DNA of 55,720 bases from an uncultured Flavobacteriaceae bacterium. GTDB lineage: Bacteria > Bacteroidota > Bacteroidia > Flavobacteriales > Flavobacteriaceae. Shown piece by piece: positions 12,477 to 54,303 of this stretch (within the stretch, counting starts at the first letter, position 1; each line of letters opens with the position of its first letter). Location: the NCBI GenBank assembly GCA_947486785.1, contig CANKUU010000022.1, positions 1-55,720 on the forward strand, in the 5' to 3' direction. Both the position numbers and the translations under genes were made by a program. The notes below the pieces were generated by a model. It was not told the origin of the DNA, ran no database searches, and saw only the letters and a program-made list of their open reading frames with translations.

Positions 12477-12478
12477 AT

Positions 12479-34601: not shown

Positions 34602-35270
34602 TTATTTCCTTAAATCTCTAATGATTGCCAAAGCCGCTTTGACTTTTTGTTCCAAAGCAGCATAATCTTTATTGGCTACTATGTCCTTTGAGATGAGTTG
34701 TGAACCCATACCCACACAGGTTACTCCTGCACTAAACCATCCCTTTAGGTTTTCCTCTGTTGGCGACACCCCGCCTGTTGGCATGATACTGGTCCATGGT
34801 TGGGGCCCTTTAACGCCCTTGACAAACTGTGGCCCATAGATATCACCTGGGAACAACTTTACGATCTCGCAGCCCAACTCTTCCGCTCTCGCTATTTCCG
34901 TTAGGCTACCACAGCCTGGAGACCATAGTACCTTTCTTCGATTACAGGCGATGGCGATATCTTCCCTTAATACAGGAGTCACAATGAAGTTTGCTCCCAA
35001 AGCCATATATAAACTAGCCTGTGCCGCATCTGTAACAGACCCTACTCCCATGATCATACCTGGCAGTTCCTTTACGGCATACTTAGTCAATTCCCCAAAT
35101 ACCTCATGGGCAAAATCGCCTCGTGCCGTAAATTCCAACAGCCTTGCGCCGCCATCATAACAGGCTTTTAATATGTTCTTACTAAGTTCTAAATCGTTGT
35201 GAAAAAACAAGGGAATCATTCCCGTGTCCTTCATGGCCTGTGCCACTTCCAATCTTGTAAATTGTGCCAT
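34602..35270 (-). CDS. kdgA: KDPG aldolase (2-dehydro-3-deoxy-phosphogluconate aldolase)
   Basis: A 222-residue class I aldolase that splits 2-keto-3-deoxy-6-phosphogluconate into pyruvate and glyceraldehyde 3-phosphate. Family residues are visible: LLEFTARGDF (catalytic Glu region), IMGVGSVTDAAQASLYMALG, and CEIVKLFPGDIYGPQFVKGV with the Schiff-base Lys. IMPTGGVSPTEENLKGWFSA closes the phosphate site. It lies 144 bases after kdgK and is the last step of the predicted oxidative route. Its base composition is noticeably richer in GC than dapA and the efflux genes. Confidence 0.92.
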   Translation of the reverse strand: MAQFTRLEVAQAMKDTGMIPLFFHNDLELSKNILKACYDGGARLLEFTARGDFAHEVFGELTKYAVKELPGMIMGVGSVTDAAQASLYMALGANFIVTPVLREDIAIACNRRKVLWSPGCGSLTEIARAEELGCEIVKLFPGDIYGPQFVKGVKGPQPWTSIMPTGGVSPTEENLKGWFSAGVTCVGMGSQLISKDIVANKDYAALEQKVKAALAIIRDLRK

Positions 35271-35306
35271 TGTCTTTTTAAATTAACTTTATTTTATTTT
35301 AAACCT

Positions 35307-35349
35307 GTTCTCGATACATCTCGCCAAAGGCATGACACTCGAACTGACA
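35307..35349. repeat. Short dispersed repeat-like element
   Basis: Between kdgA and kdgK the minus strand reads TGTCAGTTCGAGTGT, a short spacer, then GCGAGATGTATCGAGAAC. This layout (TCAGTTCGAG ... TGTATCGAGAAC) resembles short intergenic repeats seen in many Flavobacteriia. Recognition is from memory of the pattern, and no second copy was found in the window. Confidence 0.3.
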
Positions 35350-35414
35350 TGCTGTTAGGTAAAACAAACCAAGCCATATCACAGGTTAATTTATGATTGC
35401 TCTAAGATTATAAG

Positions 35415-36461
35415 CTATCGTGCCACTCGTCCAGAAGCATCCCCACCCATTAACTTTTCTACTTCTGCTACGGTCACCAAGTTGGCATCGCCCTTTATGG
35501 TATGCTTCAAACAAGAGGCTGCTACGGCAAAATCCAATGCGTTCTGATCATCATTTGGATAGGTCAACAAGCCATATATAAGACCGCCCATAAAACTGTC
35601 GCCACCGCCAACACGGTCTACGATATCGGTAATCTGGTACTGACGCGTCTCGTACATCTTGTTGCCGTCGTAAAGTACTCCTGCCCATGTGTTATGAGAC
35701 GCCGATATGGAGCCCCGCAAGGTCGTGATGACCTTTTTGGCCTTTGGGAACTTCTTCATCATTTGCTGGCAAACAGATAGGAAGGCTTCGGCCTTGACGT
35801 TATGCCCTTCGGTCTGTACGCTGATGCCCTCCGGCTTGATGCCAAAGTGCATCTCTGCATCTTCTTCGTTACCCAGTACGATATCGCAATACGAGGTCAG
35901 TTCTGCCATTATGCTTTCGCGATCCTCACTGCTACAGTACTTCCATAACTTAGCCCTGTAGTTCAGGTCCGTTGAAATTGTAATGCCCTTATCGCTGGCC
36001 GCATTTAACGCTTCCAAGCAGGCATCGGCCGCTCCCTGGGAAATAGCTGGGGTAATGCCCGTCCAATGGAACCACTCTACACCTTCCAAAGCAGCGTCCC
36101 AGTCCACCATACCAGGTTCGATCTCCGACATGGCCGAATGGGCCCTGTCATAAACTACCTTGCTCCCTCTGCTTACGGCTCCCGTTTCCAAAAAGTATAT
36201 ACCCAAGCGGTCTCCGCCCCAGACAATTTTATCTACGCCAACGCCACGCTTACGAAGTTCCATCATGGCACACTCACCTATATCGTTTTTTGGCAAGCGG
36301 GTTACAAAATCTACGTCTACTCCATAGTTCGCCAGCGATACCGCTACGTTAGACTCTCCTCCTCCATAGACCACATCAAAACTGTTGGCCTGTGAAAACC
36401 TTAAAAATCCCTGTGGGGCCAATCTTAGCATGATCTCCCCAAATGTTGCTACTTTACTCAT
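35415..36461 (-). CDS. kdgK: 2-dehydro-3-deoxygluconate kinase (PfkB/ribokinase family)
   Basis: A 348-residue sugar kinase that phosphorylates 2-keto-3-deoxygluconate (KDG) to KDPG. It starts with VATFGEIMLRLAPQGFLRFS, typical of KdgK. VVYGGGESNVAVSLANYGVD follows, and the PfkB signature DIVDRVGGGDSFMGGLIYGL near residue 290 contains the catalytic Asp. It pairs with kdgA and supplies the step between mannonate dehydratase and the aldolase. A remnant of an ABC solute-binding gene lies between it and the lactonase. It could be transcribed from its own promoter rather than from the PUL. Confidence 0.92.
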   Translation of the reverse strand: MSKVATFGEIMLRLAPQGFLRFSQANSFDVVYGGGESNVAVSLANYGVDVDFVTRLPKNDIGECAMMELRKRGVGVDKIVWGGDRLGIYFLETGAVSRGSKVVYDRAHSAMSEIEPGMVDWDAALEGVEWFHWTGITPAISQGAADACLEALNAASDKGITISTDLNYRAKLWKYCSSEDRESIMAELTSYCDIVLGNEEDAEMHFGIKPEGISVQTEGHNVKAEAFLSVCQQMMKKFPKAKKVITTLRGSISASHNTWAGVLYDGNKMYETRQYQITDIVDRVGGGDSFMGGLIYGLLTYPNDDQNALDFAVAASCLKHTIKGDANLVTVAEVEKLMGGDASGRVAR

Positions 36462-36495
36462 TTTTTATCTTTTAATTTATTCATTAACTCTAAAA

Positions 36496-36735
36496 CTATT
36501 TTTCTTTAAAAAAAACATCTATCTTATCGTCTTTATAGTCACAATATTCCTTAAGAATTTCAGTCGTATGTTCGCTACGCAGATGCTCTTAAGACATATC
36601 GCCAAATTCTTTAAGCGAGCGCACATCCCATTTCATTATGACATTAAGATGACTCTTTTTAAATTCCTCCGATGCAGCCGTTAAAGGTTCATATCCTCTT
36701 GGATGATCCCAGCCTATTCCCCTAAGTTCAATCAT
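36496..36735 (-). pseudogene. Stub of an ABC-type sugar-binding protein gene
   Basis: From ATG at 36735 one frame runs 80 codons to TAG, with a single internal stop at codon 49. The product begins MIELRGIGWDHPRGYEPLTA and continues KKSHLNVIMKWDVRSLKEFG, the conserved N-terminus of a family of cytoplasmic-looking extracellular-solute-binding proteins found in Bacteroidota and Actinobacteria. The remaining ~300 residues of the usual protein are gone, so this is a truncated pseudogene. It fills most of the 307-base gap between kdgK and the lactonase. Confidence 0.6.
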
Positions 36736-36768
36736 TTTAGAATGTTTAATATCTTTGCGTATTTTTTC

Positions 36769-37830
36769 CTATAACCAGCAAATATTTACCGGCGTTTCTA
36801 CATTTACCGTTGAATTAACGTTGAGCGTTCCATCATTCAAATTAATTTTAAATACCACCAGCGTATTTGAATCCTGATTAGCCGCTATGAGCCAATTACC
36901 TGTCGGATCAATATTAAAATCGCGGGGTGTTTTCCCTTCTGTTGATTGATGAGCAACCAATGACAGTATCTTCTCCCTTTCATCCACTCTAAAGATGACA
37001 AGAACATCTAACTCCCGGATGGATATGTAGAGAAACCTTCCTCTAGGATGGAGCCTAATAGCAGCCCCACCCATATCTCCTGTGTGATTTTCGGGTACCG
37101 CGTTAATTTTTTGTATTAATTTAAACCCGGAAACTCCTTTTTTAAAAACGAAGACCTCTCCTGTTAGTTCGCCAAGAACATATGCGTAATTATGCGCACT
37201 ATCTAATACCATATGCCTGGCACCTGAACCAGGATTAACAGAAATATCCAATTTAGAAACATGCTTCCATTTCTTGATTTTGGTGCAACACTTATAGGCC
37301 TTGGCTTTGTCAAGACCTAGATCGACTAAATACATATGATGGTTCTTAAAAGGATGAATCATATGGGTATGAGCAGCTTCTTGTCGTGCTTTATTTGGGC
37401 CACTCCCTTCATGCTTAATTAACTGATTGCATGGTGCCAACCTTCCATCTTCCAATATAGGATAGGACATTGCGTTCCCGGAGACATAACAGGCTACCAC
37501 CAATCGATCCTGTATAATTGCCAAATGACAGGCATAATCACCTGCAATTTTTTGCGAATTTAATAGGGTTAAAGTGCCCTCTTTATCAATTTTATAGGCA
37601 TAAACTTTAGGATTAAGAGCTTCATACATTTCTTCAACAGCATACAAAAACCTTTTGTCTTCAGAAATCACAAGGTAGCTCGGGCTCCTCTGTTTGGTAT
37701 AGTGTAATAACTTAACTGCGCCGGTTACCGAATTTATATGAAAACATCCAATACCTTCTCCAGTTGGGTTAACCGCAGGTGCTCCCTGCTGTGTATAGCT
37801 ACCTGTATAAAAAATTGCCATTGTATTCAA
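36769..37830 (-). CDS. Lactonase, seven-bladed beta-propeller family
   Basis: A 353-residue protein of the 6-phosphogluconolactonase-like (Lactonase, PF10282-type) family. It opens with AIFYTGSYTQQG and shows the propeller repeats: SPSYLVISEDKRFLYAVEE, a central HPFKNHHMYLVDLGLDKAKA, GARHMVLDSAHNYAYVLGEL, RLHPRGRFLYISIRELDVLV and DFNIDPTGNWLIAANQDSNT. There is no signal peptide, so it is cytoplasmic. In this locus it is well placed to open the aldonolactone made by the neighbouring SDR, giving mannonate. It starts 34 bases after the SDR stop. Confidence 0.88.
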   Translation of the reverse strand: MNTMAIFYTGSYTQQGAPAVNPTGEGIGCFHINSVTGAVKLLHYTKQRSPSYLVISEDKRFLYAVEEMYEALNPKVYAYKIDKEGTLTLLNSQKIAGDYACHLAIIQDRLVVACYVSGNAMSYPILEDGRLAPCNQLIKHEGSGPNKARQEAAHTHMIHPFKNHHMYLVDLGLDKAKAYKCCTKIKKWKHVSKLDISVNPGSGARHMVLDSAHNYAYVLGELTGEVFVFKKGVSGFKLIQKINAVPENHTGDMGGAAIRLHPRGRFLYISIRELDVLVIFRVDEREKILSLVAHQSTEGKTPRDFNIDPTGNWLIAANQDSNTLVVFKINLNDGTLNVNSTVNVETPVNICWL

Positions 37831-37864
37831 TAATTGAGGTGGTCATATTAAGCTACATAGTCTC

Positions 37865-38668
37865 TTATTTATTATTTTTCCTTGGCGGTCGTGGATCGTA
37901 TTGTATGGTATGATTCATATACGCTCCATCTATGTAAATATCAGTTCCATTAATATAATCTGCCAAGTCACTAGCTAAAAAGGCCACTGTACCAGCTACA
38001 TCGGAGACATTACCTATACGCCCCTGAGGTATCCATTTTTCGAACTTATTGCGCCCAAAATTGCTTATTTCTTCCTTATTCATATTGGTTTCAATAGCGC
38101 CCGGAGCAACAGAAACCACCCTGATATTACTTTCTGCCAATTCTAAGGACAAACATTTAGAAAACATTTTAAGACCTGCCTTTGCCGAACAATAATGAAT
38201 TAGTCCTTTCCTAGGAACCACATCATGAATTGAAGAAATATTAATAATAACTCCTCCGCCTGTTTTTTCCATTCTTAAACCTGCTTCACGCGCGCACAGC
38301 CATGGCCCCTTTAGGTTTATATTTATAATTCTATCCCACACCGCTTCTTCAAGTTCGAGTGCATGAATAATAGTTTCTGCACCCGCATTATTAACTAGAA
38401 TATCTATTCCTCCCAACTCCCGATCCATAAGAGCAAACATCTCTTTAACTTCTTGGGAATCGGCCACATCAGCTCTTCCGACGCAAACCTTGACATTATA
38501 GGTTTCCTGAATTTCCTTTGCCAGTAATTCTGCCTTTTTTTTATTACTAAAATAATTAATAAAAACATCTGCTCCATTAGCCGCTAGCTTTCTGCAAATT
38601 TCTGCACCTATACCCTGACTACCTCCCGTAACCAAAGCCTTTTTTCCGCTTAAATCTATGCTCTTCAT
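37865..38668 (-). CDS. Short-chain dehydrogenase, glucose 1-dehydrogenase-like
   Basis: A 267-residue classical SDR. It has the NAD(P) motif TGGSQGIG, NNAG, catalytic Ser in ISSIHDVVP and YxxxK as YCSAK, and APGAIETNMNKEE. The stretches SSIHDVVP and PGAIETNMN resemble bacterial glucose 1-dehydrogenases (SSVHEMIP and PGAIDTPIN), so oxidation of an aldose at C1 is a reasonable guess. Given the two alpha-mannosidases and mannonate dehydratase nearby, mannose to mannonolactone is the proposed reaction. An SDR-type fructuronate reductase remains an alternative. It is preceded by the MFS gene, 19 bases away. Confidence 0.85.
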   Translation of the reverse strand: MKSIDLSGKKALVTGGSQGIGAEICRKLAANGADVFINYFSNKKKAELLAKEIQETYNVKVCVGRADVADSQEVKEMFALMDRELGGIDILVNNAGAETIIHALELEEAVWDRIININLKGPWLCAREAGLRMEKTGGGVIINISSIHDVVPRKGLIHYCSAKAGLKMFSKCLSLELAESNIRVVSVAPGAIETNMNKEEISNFGRNKFEKWIPQGRIGNVSDVAGTVAFLASDLADYINGTDIYIDGAYMNHTIQYDPRPPRKNNK

Positions 38669-38687
38669 TTATAAATTCATTTTGATG

Positions 38688-40136
38688 TTATTTTCCAGTT
38701 CTTTCTCTCCAGAATCTTTCTATTTCTTCTAATGATTTACCCTTAGTTTCAGGAACGAATTTCCATATGAACCAAATGGCCGGAAGTGTTAGCAAAGCGT
38801 AAATAAAGAAAGTCCCAGAAGGCATTACTGTTTTTATTAAAACTGGATTGGTAAGGGTTATTACAAAACCTGTTACCATTAGTGAAAAACTACCTAATGA
38901 TACTGCCAGTCCTCTTATTCGAGTTGGGAATATCTCACTAATAATAACCCATACAATTGGTCCGAAGGAAAAGGCAAAACTTGCCACATACATTAATAAT
39001 GGAATGATAACAAATTTAGATCCTATCGCAAATAATATCCCTACTCCGGTTAAAGAGACAAAAGCTCCCATAACGCCAATTAAAAGGAGTTTTTTTCTTC
39101 CAAACTTTTCAATATTCATAATGGCAACAAAAGTAAATGCACAATTTACTATGCCTACCAATACGGCTCCTAAAAAAGAACTTTCAACACTATTAATAGA
39201 TTCATTGATGATATTGGGTGCAAAATACATGATAGCAGCAATACCACTTAAGTGGGCAAACATGGGCAGCAGTATCCCAATCCAAAGTGGAATTCTTAAA
39301 AATGGCTGAAACAATTCTTTTATACCTCCTTTTTCAGAACCCACCATTTTTTTTATCTCAGCCATTTGTAATTCGGCATGCTCTTTTCCGTTGATTTTTA
39401 TCATAATTTGCATGGCCTCATTATACCGCTCTTTAGAAACCAACCACCTTGGTGTTTCGGGAACCACAAAAAGAAGGGTTAAAAATAGTAGCGCAATTGG
39501 TATTTCGGTACCAAACATACCACGCCACAATTCATCTACGAACAACCAATTAAAGAAACCTGAAGGTACATTAGAAATAACACCCGCAGCACTTCCTGCA
39601 TGATTTAAAACGATCCAATCCACCAAAAACGCCAACAGAATTCCAAGTGTGATAGAAAACTGATATAACGAAACCATTTTTCCACGATTTTCTGGAAGTG
39701 ACAATTCTGAAATATAAATGGGTGCTACCACAGATGTAATTCCAACTCCTACACCTCCAATGATACGAACAACAATTAAGAAATTAAACGCGAATTCAGC
39801 ATCTGAAGTAACCCACATAGGGTTTTGTAAATCGCCCAAAAATTGAGGCGGCAACATAGAACCCATCGCCGAAATTGTCAAACAAAGGGCTGCAATGATC
39901 AAGGTTTTTTTTCTACCAAGACGATCCGTAATCATTCCAGACACAATACACCCAAAAATGGTTCCCAAAAGTGCAGATGAGACTACCCATCCAAGCATAG
40001 TTGGCGTTAATTGAAATTGTTGTTCCAAAAATGTATTACAACCTGAAATGATTGCTGTATCGTAACCAAAAAGAAAACCTCCAATGGTTGACACAAAACT
40101 TATTCCTAAGAGGTATTTAGACGTTTTGCTTTTCAT
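38688..40136 (-). CDS. Sugar-porter MFS transporter
   Basis: A 482-residue inner-membrane sugar:H+ symporter of the sugar-porter family (XylE-like), with 12 hydrophobic segments. Family motifs: GGFLFGYDTAIISG in TM1, DRLGRKKTLI after TM2, PETPRWLV after TM6, GRKKLL in the second half and PETKGKSLEEIERFWRE at the end. It most likely imports the free sugar released by the GH38 enzymes. It sits between the esterase (2 bases away) and the SDR. Confidence 0.93.
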   Translation of the reverse strand: MKSKTSKYLLGISFVSTIGGFLFGYDTAIISGCNTFLEQQFQLTPTMLGWVVSSALLGTIFGCIVSGMITDRLGRKKTLIIAALCLTISAMGSMLPPQFLGDLQNPMWVTSDAEFAFNFLIVVRIIGGVGVGITSVVAPIYISELSLPENRGKMVSLYQFSITLGILLAFLVDWIVLNHAGSAAGVISNVPSGFFNWLFVDELWRGMFGTEIPIALLFLTLLFVVPETPRWLVSKERYNEAMQIMIKINGKEHAELQMAEIKKMVGSEKGGIKELFQPFLRIPLWIGILLPMFAHLSGIAAIMYFAPNIINESINSVESSFLGAVLVGIVNCAFTFVAIMNIEKFGRKKLLLIGVMGAFVSLTGVGILFAIGSKFVIIPLLMYVASFAFSFGPIVWVIISEIFPTRIRGLAVSLGSFSLMVTGFVITLTNPVLIKTVMPSGTFFIYALLTLPAIWFIWKFVPETKGKSLEEIERFWRERTGK

Positions 40137-40138
40137 GT

Positions 40139-41062
40139 TTATTCATTATTTAATACATAAAGAAGACTAGCAAATGATTCTCCTAAGCTTATATACCCAG
40201 CACTATTGTAATGTGCGCTGTCTGAATATCCGTAATCTTTAGTTTCTCTTACAATTGCTGCATTTTTATCTATTCTTGCATATTTTTCTTGAGCATATTG
40301 AACTAACTCACCATATTTCCACATTTTCCCTTCTTTATTCATCCCTGAATCCGATATTTTTCCAATAACAACAGGTAAATCATCCTTATGCAATGCGGCA
40401 CGAATAAGGTTCATCAACCTCTTAAGATTTGTATAATATCGCAATGCTACTTCTTCAGTATGAAGTGCATCGCTTTCTCCTTCCATCCAAACAATTCCTG
40501 AGGGTATTAATCGATCAGAGTGGCCATCACCGTCTATATCTGATATTGCATACGCCTCATGCATAGTTCTGAGAAAAAAATCATATTGATTGATTCCCAT
40601 TTTGTCTTTATCACCATTATAATCAGGATCCCAAGATGCAACTTTCTGAATGCTGTCAATTGAAGTCCCCCCATGAGAATATTTAATAATTGCAATTTTC
40701 TGATCGGGGTAAATTTCCTGCATCCTTTTTGCAAAGGAAAGTTCGACTCCGAACAAATTAGATATTATATTTTTATGTCCATCGAATGAAAACATTTCAC
40801 CATGACCTGGTTTCAATTTTTCCCATTTACCAAGTCCTGCCAATGAATCATTAACCGCGCTAGGGTTACCATGAAAAATAAAAACATTTGCAAACTCTTG
40901 ATTTAAGGACTTTGGCAAATCTTTATTGATACCATATCCAACCATATTTGACTGACCTCCCAAAAAGAAAACTCTAATCCCGTCCGTTTCTTTATGCTGA
41001 CTGAACATAATGAATGGAAGAACCATAAAAATTAATACTACTCTTAGTCTAATATCTCTCAT
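40139..41062 (-). CDS. SASA-family carbohydrate acetylesterase
   Basis: A 307-residue secreted esterase (signal peptide ending near PFIMFSQHK). It has the SGNH/SASA layout: GQSNMVGYG with the nucleophile Ser, IKYSHGGTS, GIVWMEGESDA, and the closing DSAHYNSAGY with catalytic Asp and His. The family (PF03629-like, as in sialate and xylan acetylesterases) removes O-acetyl groups from sugars. The internal loop DIDGDGHSDRL has the spacing of an EF-hand or dockerin calcium site. It probably deacetylates the glycan before or during mannosidase attack. It lies 13 bases after the RraA-like gene. Confidence 0.85.
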   Translation of the reverse strand: MRDIRLRVVLIFMVLPFIMFSQHKETDGIRVFFLGGQSNMVGYGINKDLPKSLNQEFANVFIFHGNPSAVNDSLAGLGKWEKLKPGHGEMFSFDGHKNIISNLFGVELSFAKRMQEIYPDQKIAIIKYSHGGTSIDSIQKVASWDPDYNGDKDKMGINQYDFFLRTMHEAYAISDIDGDGHSDRLIPSGIVWMEGESDALHTEEVALRYYTNLKRLMNLIRAALHKDDLPVVIGKISDSGMNKEGKMWKYGELVQYAQEKYARIDKNAAIVRETKDYGYSDSAHYNSAGYISLGESFASLLYVLNNE

Positions 41063-41075
41063 AAAATAAAATTAT

Positions 41076-41768
41076 TTACATGATTCCAAACTTATTAAAA
41101 GCATCGACTGTGCTCATACCGCTTTCAAGAGCTTTCTTCACCAATTGCTCTCCTCTAGCTTTTTCAATCGCGCCAGTAAAAGCTTCGGTGACTACTGATT
41201 TGGGTACCACCAGCACACCATCGCGATCTCCGTATATAATATCGCCTGGATGGATTCTAACACCCTCAATTTCTATAGGAACTCGATAATCTATAACTTT
41301 GCCCCTAGGCCCCTGGTCCTGAGCATAACCTCCATAGGAAAATGTAGGAAAATCAAGATTCAAAATTTCATTTGTATCCCTAGACCAGCCGTGTAAAACA
41401 GCACCCGAAGCTTTCAATTTTATAGCTCTAGTACTCATTAAACCACCCCAAAGAGCATATCTTGGGGAAGATCCCGAACAGATATATACCTCGTTTTCTT
41501 GAAGACTATCTAAGGCTTCAAACATAATTCCAAAGGGTTTTTTCATCATTGGATTGTTAGTTACCTCTGCAGTTTCTTCAAAAACATCAGCTTCCAAAAC
41601 TGGCATAGCTCTACCTATAACCACAAAATCATCACGCAAGGGTTTTATGGTTGGTGGTAAAAATTGATATTGAAGGCCTAGTTTATCCAAAATATCGCCG
41701 ACAAGAGCCACAAAAAGTTCCTTTTTTGCAATATCAAAAAGCTCTTTATCATCTTTCCATAAATTCAT
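41076..41768 (-). CDS. RraA-family protein, probable class II pyruvate aldolase
   Basis: A 230-residue protein of the RraA / 4-hydroxy-4-methyl-2-oxoglutarate aldolase family. It carries the family core ALWGGLMSTRAIKLKASGAV, the metal- and substrate-binding Arg-Asp in LHGWSRD, and PGDIIYGDRDGVLVVPKSV. Members with this Arg-Asp pair use a divalent metal to cleave or decarboxylate pyruvate-containing acids, while others inhibit RNase E. The conserved Arg-Asp and the sugar-catabolic setting favour an enzyme. The substrate is unknown. It lies between the cupin (12 bases away) and the esterase. Confidence 0.85.
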   Translation of the reverse strand: MNLWKDDKELFDIAKKELFVALVGDILDKLGLQYQFLPPTIKPLRDDFVVIGRAMPVLEADVFEETAEVTNNPMMKKPFGIMFEALDSLQENEVYICSGSSPRYALWGGLMSTRAIKLKASGAVLHGWSRDTNEILNLDFPTFSYGGYAQDQGPRGKVIDYRVPIEIEGVRIHPGDIIYGDRDGVLVVPKSVVTEAFTGAIEKARGEQLVKKALESGMSTVDAFNKFGIM

Positions 41769-41780
41769 AATTCTATATTT

Positions 41781-45231: not shown

Positions 45232-48200
45232 TTACCAAACTATTTTAAGCGTTATAAAATCAGTAGGTGGCACTGCTATAGCATCTTTAACCACTTCCCC
45301 TAAACTATCATCTTTCATATTGTATTTATAAACCCCTGATGGTAGTTTACTTTTCCAGTTTAAACGAACATTTTCTATATGGTTTGATAAAGAGCGTAGT
45401 CTTATTAGGGCCGATTTGCCATCTTTAGTGGTTTTAAAAACTGTAGCAAACACTAAAGGATTACCCTCAATTTCTAAAATTTGTGCTAAATCAAAATCTT
45501 CTGTAATCGTTGTTGCTATTAAAGGCTGAAACTGCTCATTTCCAAAATGATTTGCCTTGGCAATATCACTTTTTGTATTATATGGAAGTATTGCATATTT
45601 AAAACTATGTATTCCTTCCTGACTTAACTGGAAATTAGTATGCCAATGATTATTCATCGCCCATGAATATATAGTCCCATTAGGATTTAGTTTATCTACC
45701 CATTGCTTAGATTCAAAAGCAGAGCCTATTATATTTGCTCTAATATCACCTACCTCAAATACTGGCACGTCTAAAGACGTCCACGCGATACTCTTATCCC
45801 CTTCTGAAACATTTACCCAGCGTCTGGCTGTTATCCAATTTCTATTAGCGCCTAATAACTGTTCCTTTTCAATTTCCATTTTACCCCATGGTATGTCTAC
45901 AATTATTTCCGGATCTTCCATATTAAAGGCAAAACCAAAGTGTACCCCTTCCTTATCTGTAGTCCCTATTTTATTTAGTACATTGTTAATTTCTATATGT
46001 GCCTCATTCTTATATAGCGTAACCTCTCTTACGAGTTTATGTACGCCTTCTGCTGAAGATTCTATAACAATTGTAGCTATCAAAGGCCCATTTTCTTTTA
46101 TAAAATACTTGTTGTTCCTTGTTCCAAATGCCTTATCCGTATTATCATCTTTTTTTAAATAATGGTAACTGTTAACCGAAAAATTTTCATCTTGTTTTAC
46201 AAACTCTTCGCCTTCTCTTATTATACTAGATATGTCGCCTGTGTTTTTGTTGATAGTAACCTTTACAATACCATTATCTAAAACATTATCGTTACCTAGG
46301 GTAGCTTTTATATTTTCTTTCTTGTTTGTTAAACGATATTTTTTGCTGCCATATGCCTTAATCTCATCAACATAAAACAACAGTTCGCCTGTTGATAATT
46401 TTTGTGATAACACCTGCCCCCCATTCTCATCAATAACAGCGTTATAATCTTCACTTTGTGCTTTCGATAATTTTACTATCCCAGACCGATTCCATGACAG
46501 CGTATTGAACACTCCTAAAATTTCGCTATTTTCTTTCTCAACGGCATTTAAAGCCTGAGATATAAGTTCATGGCTCATTGCCTTTGATTTCTCAAAATGA
46601 TCAAACTTTACTTGTAAAATCTTATCCGACAAAGGTTGTTGGTCTGGAACCATGTAGCACCAAGTATGTTCAGTTCCTAAAATAACATTTCTCCATGCTT
46701 CGTCGAATTTATCCCTATCAACGGGTTTATTGGAGTTTAGCATAGTCCATAATGTTTCTGCTTGCAATAAACGTTCTTTTGTTTGTCTATTTGTAGCCGT
46801 TTGCTTTGCAGCAGTACCTAGACCATCTGTCCAATATTCAGTGAAATCTCCCTTAAACGTAGGCAATTGGTCTCCATACTTTTCCTCAAATGCCTTTAAA
46901 ATATCTGTGGCTCCGGCAATAACTAATTTAGGATAAGCATACTCTTCGTTCCAACTTTTAACCGCTTCCGGCAAATCAGCATCAATGGGCGTATTATCTG
47001 CCATCGCCCAGGACATCACAAAAATGTCATAAGGATAATAATCAGACACCTCTAATTGAGGCAGTATTTTATTGATATATGGCTCTATAAAGTTCTCTCT
47101 TGGATTATCGGTCTTAACAATCTCCAAGAGCTTCGATGGATCTGTTTGACCAGCCATTGATGGCCAATAATCCTTCCCTTTTATTAATGCTCCAGGATTA
47201 TAGCTCCCTGCTTGTAGGAAAAGAATCTTGTTTTTTCCATTGGCATCTGCCCACCAAAATGGTTTAAAACTATGCTTAGTAGAACGTCCAACTCTATCAT
47301 ATCCATTATTAAATGAAAGGCAATATTTTATTCCTAATTTTGAGGCCACGGGAACTATACCCCAGGTCATTCCAGGAACGTCCACCTGAACGAATGTCTC
47401 TATTGGCTTTCCAGTAAGTTTTTCATATTTTTTACTAAACTTAAAAAACTCAATGAGCTCTTCTCCGTTGGTGTCTGTTGTTAACAGATTTGCATAACCT
47501 GCATCCAACCTTAGATAGCCTTTTTGGATACCTTCTACTATCTTATTCTTTTCTTCTGCCGAGGCCTTATTGAAGTACCTTTCAATCGGCCAAAGTCCTT
47601 CTGGATTCCATAAATACTTAGCCCCTTCTGGATAATGAGCTGTTTTTTCACCTAACTTAATGCCGTTTACCAAATTACGTGTATGGATTATTTCACAATT
47701 CTCTTGTGTATTAGTATATCCAATATCAATGTGTGAATGTGGATACAAATAAACCGTCCATAACCTTTTTTTAGGAACGACTATCCTTTTTGTAATCGTT
47801 TGAAACTTGGTTTTAATATGAATATCAATACTCACATCCTTATCAATAGAAACCCCTTCTGGTAGCAACAAGGTATATGTATCTTCTTCAGGCACTACAT
47901 TTAAAACGGTTATTGATTTCCTTCTTTCAGAGGTGAAAGTTACTTTTATGTCTCCGTTATACGTATTATTATTAAAAACTAATTTCACTTCCCTACCGAT
48001 ACTTCCCTTTTTATGGTATTTAAAATAGGGGTGCACTATAAAGGTAATACTGTCGTTTATAGCTGTTGTTAATCTTTTGTCTTCGGGCATATTGAAAAAA
48101 TCTGTATATACCTTACCAGTAAGATTGTTCTCGACATCATCTTCAGGGTTTGCCGTATTATTTTTTTTCTCTACCTCTTTGTTATGCACACAGGAAATAC

Positions 48201-48252
48201 TTAGTAATATTCCATTTAAAGCTAACACGACCAAACTTCTCTTAAACTTCAT
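45232..48252 (-). CDS. GH38 alpha-mannosidase-like lipoprotein
   Basis: A 1006-residue member of GH38 with a lipobox (LLSISCVHN, Cys near 21). After an N-terminal beta-rich region of about 150 residues come YPHSHIDIGYTNTQENCE (zinc site), LRLDAGYANLLTTDTNGEEL, and FVQVDVPGMTWGIVPVASKL (likely nucleophile Asp). KPFWWADANGKNKILFLQAG resembles the part of GH38 that shapes the sugar pocket. It is likely lipid-anchored, possibly at the cell surface. Two divergent GH38 enzymes in tandem suggest different linkages or locations. The upstream gap to the mannonate dehydratase gene is 284 bases, so an internal promoter is possible. Confidence 0.86.
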   Translation of the reverse strand: MKFKRSLVVLALNGILLSISCVHNKEVEKKNNTANPEDDVENNLTGKVYTDFFNMPEDKRLTTAINDSITFIVHPYFKYHKKGSIGREVKLVFNNNTYNGDIKVTFTSERRKSITVLNVVPEEDTYTLLLPEGVSIDKDVSIDIHIKTKFQTITKRIVVPKKRLWTVYLYPHSHIDIGYTNTQENCEIIHTRNLVNGIKLGEKTAHYPEGAKYLWNPEGLWPIERYFNKASAEEKNKIVEGIQKGYLRLDAGYANLLTTDTNGEELIEFFKFSKKYEKLTGKPIETFVQVDVPGMTWGIVPVASKLGIKYCLSFNNGYDRVGRSTKHSFKPFWWADANGKNKILFLQAGSYNPGALIKGKDYWPSMAGQTDPSKLLEIVKTDNPRENFIEPYINKILPQLEVSDYYPYDIFVMSWAMADNTPIDADLPEAVKSWNEEYAYPKLVIAGATDILKAFEEKYGDQLPTFKGDFTEYWTDGLGTAAKQTATNRQTKERLLQAETLWTMLNSNKPVDRDKFDEAWRNVILGTEHTWCYMVPDQQPLSDKILQVKFDHFEKSKAMSHELISQALNAVEKENSEILGVFNTLSWNRSGIVKLSKAQSEDYNAVIDENGGQVLSQKLSTGELLFYVDEIKAYGSKKYRLTNKKENIKATLGNDNVLDNGIVKVTINKNTGDISSIIREGEEFVKQDENFSVNSYHYLKKDDNTDKAFGTRNNKYFIKENGPLIATIVIESSAEGVHKLVREVTLYKNEAHIEINNVLNKIGTTDKEGVHFGFAFNMEDPEIIVDIPWGKMEIEKEQLLGANRNWITARRWVNVSEGDKSIAWTSLDVPVFEVGDIRANIIGSAFESKQWVDKLNPNGTIYSWAMNNHWHTNFQLSQEGIHSFKYAILPYNTKSDIAKANHFGNEQFQPLIATTITEDFDLAQILEIEGNPLVFATVFKTTKDGKSALIRLRSLSNHIENVRLNWKSKLPSGVYKYNMKDDSLGEVVKDAIAVPPTDFITLKIVW

Positions 48253-48536
48253 TACTTTTTAATTTTTTCTTTTTAAGAATCTCTATCTTATTCTGACTTA
48301 AAACACCTTGCCAATTACTCTATCCAACGTATTAGCCATAAACAGTTTATTAGGCTATATACATCCAAACCATAGTATGAATATTCATTTTTTTAATCGC
48401 GTATAAGTTGATCTCTTTTAGACAACCTAACTCTTGTATTAGTTGAATAGAGGGATTTCCCATGTATAAAACAGGTATCAGAAATCCCCTTATCAACTAA
48501 AAAAACTAACTCAAAAACTTATTTTTATCAATACTA

Positions 48537-49601
48537 TTAATCATTCAATAATTTTATGGCCGCTTTCATATATCCCATGGCATAAGCCATTCCCGCATAC
48601 CAGGATGCATCACAGGTCATTTGAGGAGTATGATCTGGAATCAGTACTCCTTCAAAATTGTTCTTCTTTAAAATTCTCAATATCCTGAACATGTCAATAT
48701 CCCCTTCATCAACAAAAACTTCTTTGTAGTGAGGTACTTTACCTACTATATTCCTAAAATGGATATAGCTAATCTTATCTTTTTTACTATAGGTTTCTGT
48801 TGCTTCATAGACATCACCTTCTGTCATTTCGGCAATAGAACCTAAGCAAAACTCAAGATTATTAGATGGGCTGGGTTTCAAATCAATCAACCGTTGATAC
48901 ATCTTTGGTTGATAAACCAATCTAGGAGTATTGCGGACATAAGGCATTGGTGGATCATCGGGATGGGCCGCTAATTTCACACCTGCCTCCTCGGCTACTG
49001 GTAATAATTCATCTAAAAAATATTGAAGCCTTCCCCAAAGCTCGTCATGACTTATCCTTGGTATAGTCCCCTCAGGCGCATTATCATCGTACACCATATT
49101 CCAAACCATCCCGTTAGGTATTGGCGTTTTATCCACAGTTCCATTCATGCCTACAGAAACAGCATTGCCTCTTGCATAAGGGCCAATATCCCTTGAAGAC
49201 ACACCGGCTAGTGAAAAGTTATATCCGAAAACAGGAATTCCTGCTTCTCCTACATTTCTAATCAACTGCTTGAGGTTTTCAATCTGTTCTTTCTTTTTCG
49301 GCCCGTCCAAAAGTATATCATGCCAATGTGCAGGATCGAAGTTCTCAATAGCCTCCAATTCAAGACCATTTTCATTGATCTCTTTTTTAATGGAACGTAA
49401 CAAATCCAAGCTCCAAATTTCATTTGGATCACCAGCCTTGCCCCAACCATCGATTCCGCCTATGGGTTGATCTGCCTCATCTTTATTATGTCCAAAATAA
49501 TCTACCAGATGAATTACCAAATGCGTTGCACCACATTGCTTAGCAAACTTATAGTGATCTTCATTTAGCATATGCCTGTATAATCCAAATCCTAATTTCA
49601 T
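48537..49601 (-). CDS. uxuA: D-mannonate dehydratase (UxuA family)
   Basis: A 354-residue TIM-barrel metalloenzyme that dehydrates D-mannonate to 2-keto-3-deoxygluconate. Likely metal ligands are in place: His213 in AAHPDDPP (211-218), Cys252 in FCLGSIAEM, His281 in HFRNI and Asp in DEGDID (298-303). It begins with LGFGLYRHMLNEDHYKFAKQ and is somewhat shorter than the E. coli enzyme (about 394). It lies inside the PUL between susD and the GH38 genes. That is unusual for this enzyme, which is normally found with uronate isomerase and mannonate oxidoreductase, neither of which is seen here. Confidence 0.92.
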   Translation of the reverse strand: MKLGFGLYRHMLNEDHYKFAKQCGATHLVIHLVDYFGHNKDEADQPIGGIDGWGKAGDPNEIWSLDLLRSIKKEINENGLELEAIENFDPAHWHDILLDGPKKKEQIENLKQLIRNVGEAGIPVFGYNFSLAGVSSRDIGPYARGNAVSVGMNGTVDKTPIPNGMVWNMVYDDNAPEGTIPRISHDELWGRLQYFLDELLPVAEEAGVKLAAHPDDPPMPYVRNTPRLVYQPKMYQRLIDLKPSPSNNLEFCLGSIAEMTEGDVYEATETYSKKDKISYIHFRNIVGKVPHYKEVFVDEGDIDMFRILRILKKNNFEGVLIPDHTPQMTCDASWYAGMAYAMGYMKAAIKLLND

Positions 49602-49655
49602 ATGTATTTCTAAATTATTGTTGATTAAACCAAAATAACTCTACCTTAAATAATA

Positions 49656-51122
49656 TTACAAATTAGGATTAAGTACTTTTTCATTTTGCGGAATAGGGAA
49701 ATATCGATTGCTTTCGTCCAAAGTTTTCCCATTGGGCATGGTATATCCAATAAAATTCTCGAATCCCGTCCCATTGTATACTTTTTGGGTTCGTCGTTGG
49801 TCAAACCAAATGAGTCCTGCTTCCGCTGGAAACTCAAGGAAACGTTGTTTCCAAACTTCTTCTCTAAATTGATCCTGAGAAAGTCCAGAAACCTCTGGTA
49901 ATCCAGCTCTTAACCTAACCATATTCAAGGCCAAATAGGCCAAAGCATCAGGCGAACCTGTCTCGTTTTGAGCTTCTGCATAAGTCAAGAGTACATCGGC
50001 ATAACGTATTAAGGGTACATCCTTACTAGAAATTCCATTTTCTGTCCTAAATGCATCGTAAAAATATTTGTAAACAGAGTTATTAAAAGTAAAACCATCT
50101 AATTCATCAAAAAAGAACCCTTGATTTTGCCCTCTTAAATCTGATGCATCGTAAAGGTTGATATAATCAGGTTCAGGTTCCATACCCCCAAAGTGCAAGC
50201 TTTGATTGGTTATTGCTTCACCTCCTAGTGGAGTGAAATATGTTGAGATGGAGGACACAATTGACGCCCCATCGTATTGAACCATAAAAATATGCTCTTC
50301 GGTATTGTCAAAAGCAGGATTATTTAACTTATCAAACCAAGTTGAAGAACTATCTGTTAGAAATAAATTGTACCAATCGGCATCAATTACCTCTTTGGCT
50401 TTATCTCTTGCTAAAACGTACTTATCCGTTTGTAAAAGTGGGTCTCCTGCCATAGTTAAATACACTTTGGCTAATAATGATTTAACAGCCCCTTTACTTA
50501 CTCGACCACTTGTACTTGTATTAGGTAATCCTGCGTTTTCTGCTATTAACAGATCGGGAACGATTACTGTTTCATACACCTCCTGTACACTAGACTTTGG
50601 TAGTAGTCCATCCTCAAGAGAGGTTGAAGGAACTAAATTAAGAGGGACTTCTCCGAATATTTGTACCAGTTGAAAGTAATAATATGCTCTTAAAAAGTGT
50701 GCTTCACCCAACAACGCATTAGCAATAGTAGCTGTTAATTCTGGGTCATTAATGTTTGGAATAGAGGCAATCGCTATATTAGCTGCTTCTATACCACCAT
50801 AATATGAAGTCCACAAATTCTCAGCACTCGCACTGCTAGAACTATAACTTAATACATAAGCATCCTCTAAATCAGTATCTTGAGTTCCTACAGCAGGTTT
50901 TAATGTTCCTGTACTAACTTCCAAAATTGAAAAAGCCATTTTTGCAAAACCTGTCTTATTATATGGTAACCTTAAAAAAGCATAAATTCCATTAACAGAC
51001 TGTTGAGCATCAAATAATGTGGTTCCCTCAGTTGTTTTTTCTGATCTTGGAGTCTCATCTAAGAAATCCTCACAAGAAAAAACGAAACAACAAACAACAA
51101 TTAATATTATATATTTTTTCAT
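49656..51122 (-). CDS. SusD/RagB-family glycan-binding lipoprotein (PUL 2)
   Basis: A 488-residue surface lipoprotein with a lipobox (VFSCEDFLDE, Cys near 17). SusD landmarks: LFDAQQSVNGIYAFLRLPYN, LLGEAHFLRAYYYFQLVQIF, VKSLLAKVYLTMAGDP, VPLIRYADVLLTYAEAQNE, and the C-terminal FREEVWKQRFLEFPAEAGLI followed by RYFPIPQNEKVLNPNL. It follows susC by 7 bases. It would capture the mannose-containing glycan at the outer surface for the SusC partner. Confidence 0.94.
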   Translation of the reverse strand: MKKYIILIVVCCFVFSCEDFLDETPRSEKTTEGTTLFDAQQSVNGIYAFLRLPYNKTGFAKMAFSILEVSTGTLKPAVGTQDTDLEDAYVLSYSSSSASAENLWTSYYGGIEAANIAIASIPNINDPELTATIANALLGEAHFLRAYYYFQLVQIFGEVPLNLVPSTSLEDGLLPKSSVQEVYETVIVPDLLIAENAGLPNTSTSGRVSKGAVKSLLAKVYLTMAGDPLLQTDKYVLARDKAKEVIDADWYNLFLTDSSSTWFDKLNNPAFDNTEEHIFMVQYDGASIVSSISTYFTPLGGEAITNQSLHFGGMEPEPDYINLYDASDLRGQNQGFFFDELDGFTFNNSVYKYFYDAFRTENGISSKDVPLIRYADVLLTYAEAQNETGSPDALAYLALNMVRLRAGLPEVSGLSQDQFREEVWKQRFLEFPAEAGLIWFDQRRTQKVYNGTGFENFIGYTMPNGKTLDESNRYFPIPQNEKVLNPNL

Positions 51123-51129
51123 AATCTTA

Positions 51130-54100
51130 TTATATTTTTAAATTTATTCCCATATTTATATTCATCGCCTTTGGATATCCATTAAGTTCTATTCCTTCAG
51201 AAAATTGTCCTCCAAAAGAGCTAACCTCAGGATCGTACCCATGATAATCTGTAAGGATAAAGAAGTTTTGAAGATTTAAGTAAATTTTTAACCCTTGAAG
51301 ATTAACCTTTTCGAGGAAATTTCGGTCAAAATTATAGGAAAGGCTTAGGTTTTGACCTCTTATAAAGCTTCCATCAAATACTTGTCCTGAATCGGCTCCA
51401 TCAAACTTCTTAATATTTTTACGAACCCTTGGGTACATGGTATTTTGATTCTCAGGAGTCCATGCCTGATTATAGAATTTTTTATACGTATTACCATATC
51501 CCATACGGTCAACAAAAAGAATTATCGAATGATCTAGAATATCGTTTCCTTTACTAAGTCGTATGTCCACACTTAAATTCCAATTCTTATACGAAAATGT
51601 GTTGCCAATATTCATTGTATAATCTGGCAAACCGCTGCCTATAATTTGTTGATCATCAAAGTTCAAGACACCGTCATTATTCTTATCTTCTAACTTAATA
51701 TCTCCAGGTATTCTACCATAAACAGCAGCTTCGTCTACCTCATCTGTTCCCCAAGTTCCTAATCGATTGTAGCCCCAAAAAGCACCTGCTGATTCACCTA
51801 CCCTAAAAATCTGTTGGTTCCACCATATTGGTGCGGTAAAAATATCGGCATCATCAGTTCCAAGGGATAGAATTTTATTAACGTTCTTTGTGAAATTAAT
51901 AGAGCTGCTCCAGCTAAAGTTATCGGTCATCACATTGGTACTACTAATTAACAGTTCTATTCCGTTGTTTCTAATCGACCCTGCGTTTGAAAGTATGGAT
52001 GAATAGCCAGTAAATGATGCTAGAGGGACGTTGAACAATAGGTCTTTTGTGGTCCTGCTGTAATAATCTCCTGTAATATCTACTCTATTGAAAAGCCCAA
52101 GGTTAAATCCAATATTATACTCTTCTGTTTTTTCCCATCTTAAATTATCGTTACCTATGGTACCCTGAGAAGACCCGGTAAATCTTGTATTATTAAAGCT
52201 GACCTCTTGCTCTCCTAGACTAGAAATTCTGGCATAATTACCAATTGCATCATTTCCGCTCTCTCCATAGGTAACCCTTAATCTTAAGTCACTTAAAGTT
52301 TCTGAATCCTCTAAAAATGGTTCATTGGATACCTTCCAAGCTATTCCCGCAGACGGGAAAAATGAATACTTATTGTTTTTCCCAAATCTTGAAGACCCGT
52401 CGTAACGACCTGTGAATTCAAGTAAATATTTGTTCTTATAGCCATAATTTATCCGTCCAAAATAAGAATCGGTAGTATTTCTGCTAAAATCACTAAAAAC
52501 AGAAGGCTCGGCTGTCCCTTGTCCAACATTATTAAAACTATAAAAATCGTCAAAATCCTGAGCAGTCAAACCAAACTGAAACACTTCATTTTCTTGTCTT
52601 GAAGCTCCAAGTATAGCACCAAACGAATGGTTTTCATTTATATTAGGATTATAACTCAATACATTTTCAATTAGATTTTGATTCAAATTTGTATTGGTTA
52701 AAGAAGCAGAGGTTCTGTTAACAAATGTATCAACTCGTCTTCCTATATGTGATCTTCCTTCTGTATTATAATTTAAGATTGAATATGACGTTCTTAATTT
52801 TAAATCTTTGGTGAAATTGATTTCAGTGAAGATGTTACGGGTAACTTGTCTTTTGTAAAAGTCTCTATTCAAAGCATTTAATCTATCCTTTGGTGTTGCT
52901 CCATACCATACATCCCAAGTTCCATTAGCGTTCAGTAAATCATCAGCATTTACAGCTGTACCATCTTCATATCTAGTAGGATAAATAGGTAAATAGAAAA
53001 GAGCTCTCATTGTAATATTATCAGCACCTATTCTATAATCATCTACAATGTTAGTCTTGGTATCAGAGTATGACATACTTCCTCCTACTTTCAACCAATC
53101 TTTCACCATGAACTCACCATTAAAGCGCATGGTGTTCTTCTTTAAAAAGGTATTTAGTAATATCCCTTCATCGTCTTGTGTTCCTGCAGAAAACGAAAAA
53201 TTAGAATTTTCTCCTCCTCCTCTAACATTTACAAAGTATTGCTGGGAAACAGCAGTGCGTGTTGATTCATCCAACCAATCGGTATCGTACTTTGGTAAAT
53301 CTGATCGGGTTCCATCTTCTGTGAACAATGCGGGATAATCTGTTGCATAATCATCAACAAAGAAACCACTTGGTGTACCCAAAGCCATTTGATCCTCATC
53401 TAACCTCACTTTCAGGTCTTTCCAATACTCCATAGCACTTAATACTTCAGGCTTATTGGTCAACCTTGCAACTTGTGAATTCGTATTTACATCTACAGAA
53501 ATCTTTCCTGATTTACCTTTTTTTGTTGTAACCAATATTACACCATTTGCCCCTCTTGCCCCATATATAGCTGTAGCAGACGCATCTTTAAGGACAGTCA
53601 TAGTTTCTATATCGTTGGTGTTTATTAACTCGATATCTACTCCTATAACACCATCAACAACATATAATGGTTGATTGTTTGCATTTAAAGAACCCTTTCC
53701 TCTAATGGTAACCTGCATACCACCTCCTGGTCGCCCTGAGCTATTAAAAACATTTAAACCAGCTACCTTACCTTGTAAATTGTCCAATGGATTTACAGAT
53801 ACCCTTTCTTCCATTTTACTTGAATTAACTGTTGCAATAGAGCCTGCTATATCTGATCTCTTGTCTGTTCCATAACCAACAACAACAACCTCATCTAATT
53901 TAGACGTACTTTCTTCTAAAGTTATGTTTACTTCTTTTTTTCCTCTCACACTAATCTCTTGAGTAGAAAAACCTATATAAGAAATAAGCAATATTGCATT
54001 TTCATCAGATACTGAAATAGAAAAGTTTCCATCAAAATCTGTCTGCACACCATTGGAAGTCCCTTTCTCGATAACATTTGCTCCAGGTAACGGAGTGCCA

Positions 54101-54303
54101 AAATTATCCTTGACCGTACCAGAAATCAGAATTTGACTTTCTGATTCTTTTACTCCATTAGGTGAAATGCTACTTAGCTTGGTTTCATTAACCACGCTAT
54201 CTGCATGCCCCTTAGGTATTGCCATACTAGACCACGAGCCAAAAAAGACCAGTACGAAAAGCACACGACCACCTGCTTTTATTAATGATGATGATTTTCT
54301 CAT
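51130..54303 (-). CDS. SusC-like TonB-dependent outer-membrane receptor (PUL 2)
   Basis: A 1057-residue SusC/RagA family importer. An N-terminal signal region (LIKAGGRVLFVLVFFGSWSS) is followed by a ~35-residue linker, the carboxypeptidase-like domain (ISGTVKDNFGTPLPGANVIE), the signature LDEVVVVGYGTDKRSDIAGS, the plug (IRGKGSLNANNQPLYVVDGV, then DASATAIYGARGANGVILVT) and a beta-barrel ending in AMNINMGINLKI. The length is normal. A LacI-type palindrome lies 64-81 bases upstream of its start, so it is probably the first structural gene of the PUL 2 operon and repressed by the adjacent LacI protein. Confidence 0.95.
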   Translation of the reverse strand: MRKSSSLIKAGGRVLFVLVFFGSWSSMAIPKGHADSVVNETKLSSISPNGVKESESQILISGTVKDNFGTPLPGANVIEKGTSNGVQTDFDGNFSISVSDENAILLISYIGFSTQEISVRGKKEVNITLEESTSKLDEVVVVGYGTDKRSDIAGSIATVNSSKMEERVSVNPLDNLQGKVAGLNVFNSSGRPGGGMQVTIRGKGSLNANNQPLYVVDGVIGVDIELINTNDIETMTVLKDASATAIYGARGANGVILVTTKKGKSGKISVDVNTNSQVARLTNKPEVLSAMEYWKDLKVRLDEDQMALGTPSGFFVDDYATDYPALFTEDGTRSDLPKYDTDWLDESTRTAVSQQYFVNVRGGGENSNFSFSAGTQDDEGILLNTFLKKNTMRFNGEFMVKDWLKVGGSMSYSDTKTNIVDDYRIGADNITMRALFYLPIYPTRYEDGTAVNADDLLNANGTWDVWYGATPKDRLNALNRDFYKRQVTRNIFTEINFTKDLKLRTSYSILNYNTEGRSHIGRRVDTFVNRTSASLTNTNLNQNLIENVLSYNPNINENHSFGAILGASRQENEVFQFGLTAQDFDDFYSFNNVGQGTAEPSVFSDFSRNTTDSYFGRINYGYKNKYLLEFTGRYDGSSRFGKNNKYSFFPSAGIAWKVSNEPFLEDSETLSDLRLRVTYGESGNDAIGNYARISSLGEQEVSFNNTRFTGSSQGTIGNDNLRWEKTEEYNIGFNLGLFNRVDITGDYYSRTTKDLLFNVPLASFTGYSSILSNAGSIRNNGIELLISSTNVMTDNFSWSSSINFTKNVNKILSLGTDDADIFTAPIWWNQQIFRVGESAGAFWGYNRLGTWGTDEVDEAAVYGRIPGDIKLEDKNNDGVLNFDDQQIIGSGLPDYTMNIGNTFSYKNWNLSVDIRLSKGNDILDHSIILFVDRMGYGNTYKKFYNQAWTPENQNTMYPRVRKNIKKFDGADSGQVFDGSFIRGQNLSLSYNFDRNFLEKVNLQGLKIYLNLQNFFILTDYHGYDPEVSSFGGQFSEGIELNGYPKAMNINMGINLKI

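Follow-up and report, generated by a model that had tools for sequence, protein, structure and literature searches.

A putative alpha-mannoside utilisation operon with a predicted oxidative mannose pathway in an uncultured Flavobacteriaceae bacterium

The DNA described here is contig CANKUU010000022.1 (G000:C22) of assembly GCA_947486785.1, the 3.57-Mb, 136-contig genome of an uncultured Flavobacteriaceae bacterium. The whole contig, 55,720 nucleotides long, is referred to below as the window. Its positions 34602-55430 hold a block of 14 genes, all on the minus strand, which combines a SusC/SusD pair and two GH38 alpha-mannosidase genes with a mannonate dehydratase-like gene (UxuA) and further sugar-acid genes. 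These include a short-chain dehydrogenase/reductase (SDR), a lactonase, and predicted enzymes for 2-keto-3-deoxygluconate (KDG) and its 6-phosphate (KDPG), accompanied by a transporter of the major facilitator superfamily (MFS). In gene order, the block reads:

54405..55430, minus strand: LacI-family regulator, first gene of the block (Pfam LacI and Peripla_BP_3), 101 bp upstream of SusC
51130..54303, minus strand: SusC-like TonB-dependent transporter (Pfam Plug, TonB_dep_Rec_b-barrel and CarbopepD_reg_2)
49656..51122, minus strand: SusD-like glycan-binding protein (Pfam SusD-like_3 and SusD_RagB)
48537..49601, minus strand: predicted variant-clade mannonate dehydratase, UxuA/ManD-like (PF03786, 184.3 bits against a gathering cut-off of 23.7)
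45232..48252, minus strand: GH38 alpha-mannosidase family, N-terminus lipoprotein-like by eye (PF01074, 39.7 bits; PF07748, 35.8 bits)
42249..45161, minus strand: GH38 alpha-mannosidase family (GH38a), N-terminus signal-peptide-like by eye (PF01074, 99.5 bits; PDB alpha-mannosidase matches)
41781..42224, minus strand: small cupin-like protein, kept in the cassette (PDB 3d0j, E 1.9e-14; WbuC cupin model below cut-off; Pfam search without a match and other searches uninformative)
41076..41768, minus strand: RraA-like protein, candidate for acting on mannonate or KDG (PF03737, 105.9 bits)
40139..41062, minus strand: SASA-type carbohydrate esterase, N-terminus signal-peptide-like by eye (PF03629, 93.6 bits)
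38688..40136, minus strand: sugar-porter MFS transporter, XylE/GlcP-like (PF00083, 345 bits; TIGR00879, 330 bits, above its cut-off of 238)
37865..38668, minus strand: SDR, predicted mannose 1-dehydrogenase (best PDB match glucose 1-dehydrogenase 3ay6)
36769..37830, minus strand: seven-bladed beta-propeller lactonase, predicted mannono-lactonase (PF10282, 290 bits; PDB matches)
35415..36461, minus strand: PfkB-family kinase, predicted KDG kinase (PF00294, 108 bits; NF041633, 480 bits, below its cut-off of 700)
34602..35270, minus strand: KDPG/KHG aldolase (equivalog model NF005499, 385 bits, above its cut-off of 275)

An initial annotation, limited to positions 34602-54303, had already recognised most of this as one minus-strand unit, and full-length open frames and Pfam families confirm it for every gene then named. 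The grouping looks more than coincidental, both GH38 matches of the genome lying in it. Missing from that list were the SASA-type esterase, the RraA-like and cupin-like genes and the LacI regulator, which lies outside those positions. Its statement that the families were solid holds for the Pfam families and for the KDPG aldolase, an equivalog-level match, but UxuA, lactonase and kinase stay below NCBIfam cut-offs and the SDR reaches a broad model only. From GH38a to the lactonase the intergenic gaps are just 2-34 bp, and co-transcription of this part is therefore likely. Judged by eye, GH38, SusD and esterase start like exported proteins, while UxuA, RraA, SDR, lactonase and kinase do not; glycan cutting would therefore take place outside and sugar oxidation inside. 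As in an alpha-mannan polysaccharide-utilisation locus (PUL), a SusC/SusD pair accompanies alpha-mannosidase genes, although the Pfam search finds no GH76 (endo-mannanase) or GH92 (exo-mannosidase), one of which is also expected of such a locus, among the 14 genes.

What would such a block do? It is probably an alpha-mannoside polysaccharide-utilisation operon with its own oxidative mannose pathway. SusC and SusD would take up mannosides, from which the exported GH38 enzymes, perhaps with the help of the SASA esterase, would free mannose in the periplasm. The sugar porter would then bring mannose in without phosphorylation, the SDR would oxidise it to mannono-lactone, and the beta-propeller lactonase would open the latter. 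Variant-clade UxuA would convert mannonate to KDG, and the PfkB kinase and KDPG aldolase would take KDG to pyruvate and glyceraldehyde 3-phosphate; RraA would most likely come in no earlier than mannonate and might give KDG a second way out. The substrates and directions of this scheme, like co-transcription, are predicted from gene order, families, residues, fold and co-occurrence. Its central claim, the oxidation of mannose, was already put forward in the initial annotation and is now supported because mannosidases, porter, SDR, lactonase and the UxuA clade lie together in relatives, and by the SDR residues, the ligands and fold of UxuA, and the context of UxaC, all described below. Alpha-mannosides are common in marine glycans, and flavobacteria are normally pictured as using mannose via mannose 6-phosphate; a conserved mannose-oxidising operon, if real, would alter how energy and redox equivalents are accounted for when alpha-mannan is used.

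The comparative evidence comes from a genome scan with the variant UxuA, in which 286 stretches encode relatives; the best 80 of the 286 were kept and read. These 80 loci belong mainly to Bacteroidota (Flavobacteriaceae, Prolixibacteraceae, Chitinophagaceae and others) and Verrucomicrobiota. Their genes are labelled by our own score thresholds, and the labels for GH76, GH92, substrate-binding protein (SBP) fold, enoyl-CoA hydratase, CoA transferase, UxaC, Nramp and second SDR derive from one annotated representative per cluster; the reading-frame filter gave no UxuA frame in L097 and L107. Percentages and counts on related loci refer to the 58 of these 80 that are at least 15 kb long, and “mannosidase locus” means a locus with GH38, GH76 or GH92. 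Related loci share kinship, so their counts are not independent and strong Fisher tests only rank associations. A separate comparison sample consists of 98 relative genomes, including the one studied here.

A quick tree of 105 sequences puts the UxuA of the window in a clade far removed from ordinary UxuA. In it, 80 variant rows and 25 canonical ones, the latter labelled by score, are divided by a long branch (length 4.17, SH-aLRT 100), and the quick tree itself warns of long branches that meet. Residues H213, C252, H281 and D323 align with 3ban, the Streptococcus suis enzyme, at what we take to be the metal ligands of that mannonate dehydratase, and at least 97% of 79 variant sequences, the window's among them, retain them. 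The structure model (mean pLDDT 79.8) has the ManD fold, its first five PDB matches all being mannonate dehydratases, at a modest TM by query of 0.65-0.71 and a root-mean-square deviation of 5.6-7.6. Eight of the 98 relatives carry the variant, and five of these (G011, G019, G024, G045, G057) have a canonical-type UxuA as well. G024 also encodes a second variant homologue, 34% identical and about 12 kb from the first (G024:C20:932990-933976), and a third, partial copy on C18 (83%, 184-aa frame). A conserved mannose-oxidising operon would give a likely function to this clade, which lies outside the curated models; the UxuA of the relative L050 is likewise under the NCBIfam uxuA cut-off, with 127.2 bits.

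Finding UxuA within a GH38/SusCD locus had been called unusual, and for ordinary UxuA it is, but the variant clade is usually found beside mannosidases: GH38, GH76 or GH92 occurs in 45 of the 58 long loci (GH76 in 15/58, GH92 in 14/58). A search of related genomes for the same gene set, the check proposed at the outset, finds an MFS scoring 180 bits or more in 44 of the 45 mannosidase loci, SDR in 40 and lactonase in 34. RraA is present in 44, the cupin in 40, the SBP-fold protein in 26, enoyl-CoA hydratase and CoA transferase in 24 each, and UxaC in one. The 13 long loci without a mannosidase have RraA in 5, MFS, SDR and lactonase in 1 each, UxaC in 6 and Nramp in 5. All frames labelled RraA (44), MFS (50), SDR (40), lactonase (34) and GH38 (66) in the mannosidase loci lie on the strand of the UxuA match. 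The gene set first proposed thus keeps its upper half; it had missed RraA, and its kinase and aldolase are rarely part of the locus in relatives. The SASA-type esterase is labelled in 4 of the 80 loci. Such a gene set is a possible marker for mannose oxidisers in metagenomes.

The SDR is the entry point of the predicted pathway. Its residues E98, S146, H148, Y159 and N197 align with glucose 1-dehydrogenase 3ay6, and E98, H148 and N197 are presumably active-site positions of that enzyme. These three are identical in 46 of 46 related SDRs, whereas the 7 SDRs of UxaC loci, drawn from six loci, have none of them (one of the seven, in L074, lies away from the UxaC run). Given this split the SDR is unlikely to be a fructuronate reductase, and mannose oxidation would be the step called for by the rest of the pathway. 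Comparison with the nearest relative, L121, adds to the picture: SDR and lactonase are 76.5% and 65.2% identical to those of the window and their neighbours 94.6-99.4%, so that the two genes seem to have been exchanged together, as fits a functional pair.

UxaC, the uronate isomerase, accompanies the variant UxuA in L056, L068, L072, L074, L077 and L089, together with another SDR and an Nramp-type transporter, and in the tree these loci sit among the mannosidase loci. The latter have a different SDR and a lactonase in place of UxaC and its SDR. Glucuronate that is isomerised and reduced becomes mannonate, so UxuA in the UxaC loci would again receive mannonate, and this context points to mannonate as the substrate of the variant clade. 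Two of the eight loci with UxaC, L055 and L079, are excluded from the argument for their canonical UxuA in the same gene run; L055 is still counted among the 6 UxaC loci without a mannosidase. The fructuronate role of the UxaC-locus SDRs rests on gene context: for those of two UxaC loci, the 25 families shown (out of 132 and 128 respectively) include no model named mannonate oxidoreductase. The Nramp-type transporter adjoins the variant UxuA in L071 as well as in the six loci just named, UxaC being present in six of these seven; metal supply is a possible reason for its place beside a metal-dependent dehydratase.

Several observations weigh against the oxidative mannose pathway. UxuA misses the NCBIfam uxuA equivalog cut-off (120.3 against 199.55 bits), the lactonase that for 6-phosphogluconolactonase (151.6 against 370 bits) and the kinase that for KDG kinase (47.7 against 400 bits), where no equivalog cut-off is reached. 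The SDR reaches only the broad subfamily model NF005559 among the 25 families shown of 235 (220.2 bits against 215); since the SDRs of UxaC loci reach it even better (252 and 250 bits), this model says nothing about the substrate. A labelled SDR is missing in 5 of the 45 mannosidase loci (L033, where the flank is cut, L036, L053, L087 and L103) and a labelled lactonase in 11, while KDG kinase and KDPG aldolase are each present in 6 of the 45. The kinase and aldolase may also receive KDG from other sources in the genome, such as lyases acting on other glycans. Mannose kinase, mannose-6-phosphate isomerase, uronate isomerase and an obvious mannonate oxidoreductase had been reported absent, which holds in the locus; genome-wide, however, a class I mannose-6-phosphate isomerase (ManA) above its equivalog cut-off is found elsewhere, and so is one ROK protein, nearest to polyphosphate-glucose phosphotransferase, though below that cut-off.

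The presence of ManA would suit a cell that phosphorylates mannose in the classical way and keeps the oxidative genes for a minor or different substrate. ManA is also required for GDP-mannose synthesis, though, the operon has no recognised mannose kinase, and the single ROK match is no clear mannokinase in a search that did not extend to other hexokinase families; we regard this explanation as unlikely. The same enzymes might also serve another sugar, the SDR oxidising an aldose released together with mannose to an aldonate other than mannonate. The scores of the SDR with NCBIfam models that include rhamnose dehydrogenase, and the divergence of UxuA, would be in keeping with this, but the families that accompany the cassette (GH38, GH76 and GH92) all indicate alpha-mannosides, and the UxaC context mannonate, so that another sugar seems quite improbable. 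Uronate catabolism, finally, would make the SDR a fructuronate reductase and let UxuA take mannonate from glucuronate, released for example from glucuronomannan. UxuA is classically a uronate enzyme, and the variant clade is paired with UxaC in six relatives. A search of the window's own genome nevertheless returned no intact UxaC, just a UxaC-like fragment with 9 stops (G000:C10:116281-116637, L114), perhaps a lost uronate isomerase; the one mannosidase locus with UxaC (L079) has it in one run with a canonical UxuA; the SDR residues separate the two groups without overlap; and a lactonase has no role in that route. With no intact UxaC and a different SDR, uronate catabolism is rejected as the main explanation and is very unlikely.

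The lower half of the pathway leaves more room for doubt. The window's genome has its sole UxuA, its sole PF01081 (KDPG aldolase) match (34602..35270) and both of its GH38 matches in this block, and its one ILVD_EDD match is IlvD, so that it has no Edd (phosphogluconate dehydratase); because of this, and without an intact UxaC, the kinase and aldolase most plausibly serve this locus. Yet RraA is found in nearly all mannosidase loci and the kinase and aldolase in few, and RraA is also present in four of the six loci that combine UxaC with variant UxuA (L056, L072, L077, L089), hence is common to two routes that meet at mannonate. It is for this reason placed at or below mannonate, most likely, and possibly offers a second exit for KDG. 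Eight relatives, drawn from both contexts, have RraA proteins 76-83% identical to that of the window; in a ninth, L121, the figure is 98%. Strong RraA occurs in 7 of the 98 relatives and in six of the eight carriers of variant UxuA (P 1.8e-7, own genome included); the exceptions are G014, with strong RraA and no variant UxuA, and G009 and G037, where the reverse holds. In RraA-type class II pyruvate aldolases, according to excerpts of PMC5065237, a catalytic Arg is followed by a metal-binding Asp. The RraA of the window has this pair as R130-D131, shared by all ten sequences of an alignment and by at least 97% of a set of 56. We assume that the motif also has an Asp 21 residues before the catalytic Arg; there, all ten aligned sequences have a Gly instead (G109). 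A second RraA motif presumably has Gly at this place and a later acidic residue (E134 here). The structure model of RraA is too poor for use (mean pLDDT 38.2).

These findings raise the possibility of a phosphate-free lower half, in which RraA would cleave or otherwise process KDG and the kinase and aldolase would be a lineage-specific addition to the locus. It shares the upper half of the oxidative mannose pathway and is compatible with it, and we consider it a tentative option, somewhat less likely than not. The distribution of RraA speaks for it, as does FlDet, a Flavobacterium enzyme of the RraA family acting on 2-keto-3-deoxy-D-glucarate (PMC8563752, in part), although FlDet is a dehydratase/decarboxylase and not a KDG aldolase. 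Against it stand G109 at the first metal-motif position, the lack of RraA in the stretches read of L068 and L074, and the three exceptional genomes. Moreover, a KDPG aldolase is encoded somewhere in 44 of the 44 cluster genomes searched, a set that covers 39 of the 45 mannosidase loci together with L063 and four UxaC loci (the genomes of L033, L087, L088, L094, L097 and L103 were outside this check), and in 8 of 8 variant-UxuA genomes as against 50 of the 98 relatives overall, own genome included. In its widest form the idea is rather doubtful: a fully phosphate-free breakdown of both mannose and glucuronate would be widespread in Bacteroidota, and perhaps in Verrucomicrobiota, with the separate UxuA clade making KDG, a dedicated RraA-like enzyme processing it in place of KDG kinase and KDPG aldolase, and the window's kinase and aldolase being a lineage-specific addition. 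A conserved mannose-oxidising operon also opens the part played by RraA-like proteins in the breakdown of sugar acids to direct testing.

The locus has also lost genes. Between lactonase and kinase, within 36462-36768, lie two remnants of a module that many relatives keep:

36580..36735, minus strand: remnant of the start of an SBP-fold gene, longer in many relatives (63-75% over 52 aa by tblastn in the rows that begin at residue 1)
36499..36582, minus strand: remnant of a family III CoA transferase gene, its final 28 codons (71% over 28 aa against the copy in L121 by tblastn)

The first has 52 aligned codons, with a stop after codon 48. The full three-gene module, made of SBP-fold protein, enoyl-CoA hydratase and CoA transferase, is present in 23 of the 45 mannosidase loci, and its remnants indicate that it is lost in the window. 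The same place is damaged in L121, where an SBP piece of 95 aa and a CoA transferase of 280 aa have another MFS gene between them and no hydratase match is found at the site. In L035, L036 and L039 the three genes lie inside mannan loci, and the SBP-fold protein starts, by eye, without an export signal. An anti-correlation between this module and KDG kinase was considered and is not seen, the module being present in 5 of the 6 kinase loci.

Oxidation of mannose has precedents, described so far mainly for archaea: Thermoplasma enzymes carry it out in vitro, and in haloarchaea it is predicted. Excerpts of PMC6901390 describe a cell-free cascade of Thermoplasma acidophilum enzymes (AldT, ManD and KDG aldolase) that takes mannose through mannonate and KDG. 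An aldohexose dehydrogenase at the entry and an unphosphorylated course from mannose via mannono-lactone and mannonate to KDG are shared with the scheme proposed here (PMC6901390). The archaeal lactone is, however, said there to open spontaneously, and KDG is cleaved unphosphorylated, whereas the window has an SDR-lactonase pair, a separate UxuA clade, a kinase/aldolase pair and a SusCD operon. For the haloarchaeon Natronoglomus mannanivorans a mannose route with a semi-phosphorylative lower half is predicted; its mannanase cluster includes genes for mannonate dehydratase, and the cluster figure legend names RraA, in a panel that the legend does not specify; this concerns archaeal use of beta-mannan, and in the passages available the mannose dehydrogenase is left open by the authors (PMC10963439). 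With the hexuronate gene set UxaC-UxuB-UxuA-KdgK-KdgA (PMC4891872, in part) the window has UxuA, KDG kinase and KDPG aldolase in common; unlike that set, its locus has no UxaC or recognised fructuronate reductase, and it differs in its UxuA clade and in its entry through aldose oxidation and a lactonase. The FlRed-FlDet-FlDeg route of Flavobacterium UMI-01, which oxidises 4-deoxy-L-erythro-5-hexoseulose uronate (DEHU), likewise involves a flavobacterial enzyme of the RraA family with a 2-keto-3-deoxy sugar acid as its substrate, but this is a hexarate derived from alginate, and it undergoes dehydration/decarboxylation (PMC8563752, in part). The alpha-mannan gene cluster of Salegentibacter sp. 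Hel_I_6 resembles the window as a marine flavobacterial locus with mannosidases; it is described via GH76, GH92 and GH125, and the words dehydratase, dehydrogenase and isomerase each appear 0 times in the main text of PMC9213526. In the open-licence literature, a scope that leaves out most subscription papers, no account of Bacteroidota using mannose oxidatively was found; judged by gene content, sets related to that of the window occur in many Bacteroidota.

Some related loci hold further genes of interest. Near the cassette of L053, an MtaB-like methanol-corrinoid methyltransferase and a B12-binding protein (L053:12542-14605) perhaps serve O-methylated sugars. Inside the mannan cassette of L081 lies a GlcNAc_2-epim family protein (L081:4620-5924), whose nearest model is cellobiose 2-epimerase, below cut-off, and which has cluster mates in L058, L084 and L085. 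In the window itself, a second PUL occupies 1805-17977 on the plus strand, with SusC/SusD, an SSF symporter, a 947-aa protein without a Pfam match, an FAD_oxidored protein, GH97 and GH2. Next to the 14-gene block, positions 32589-34601 look like a decayed gene, with no open reading frame of at least 100 aa except a phosphofructokinase-like fragment at 34050-34370 and many stops in the other frames; beyond it, at 31677-32588, follows a DapA-like gene that scores above the dapA cut-off.

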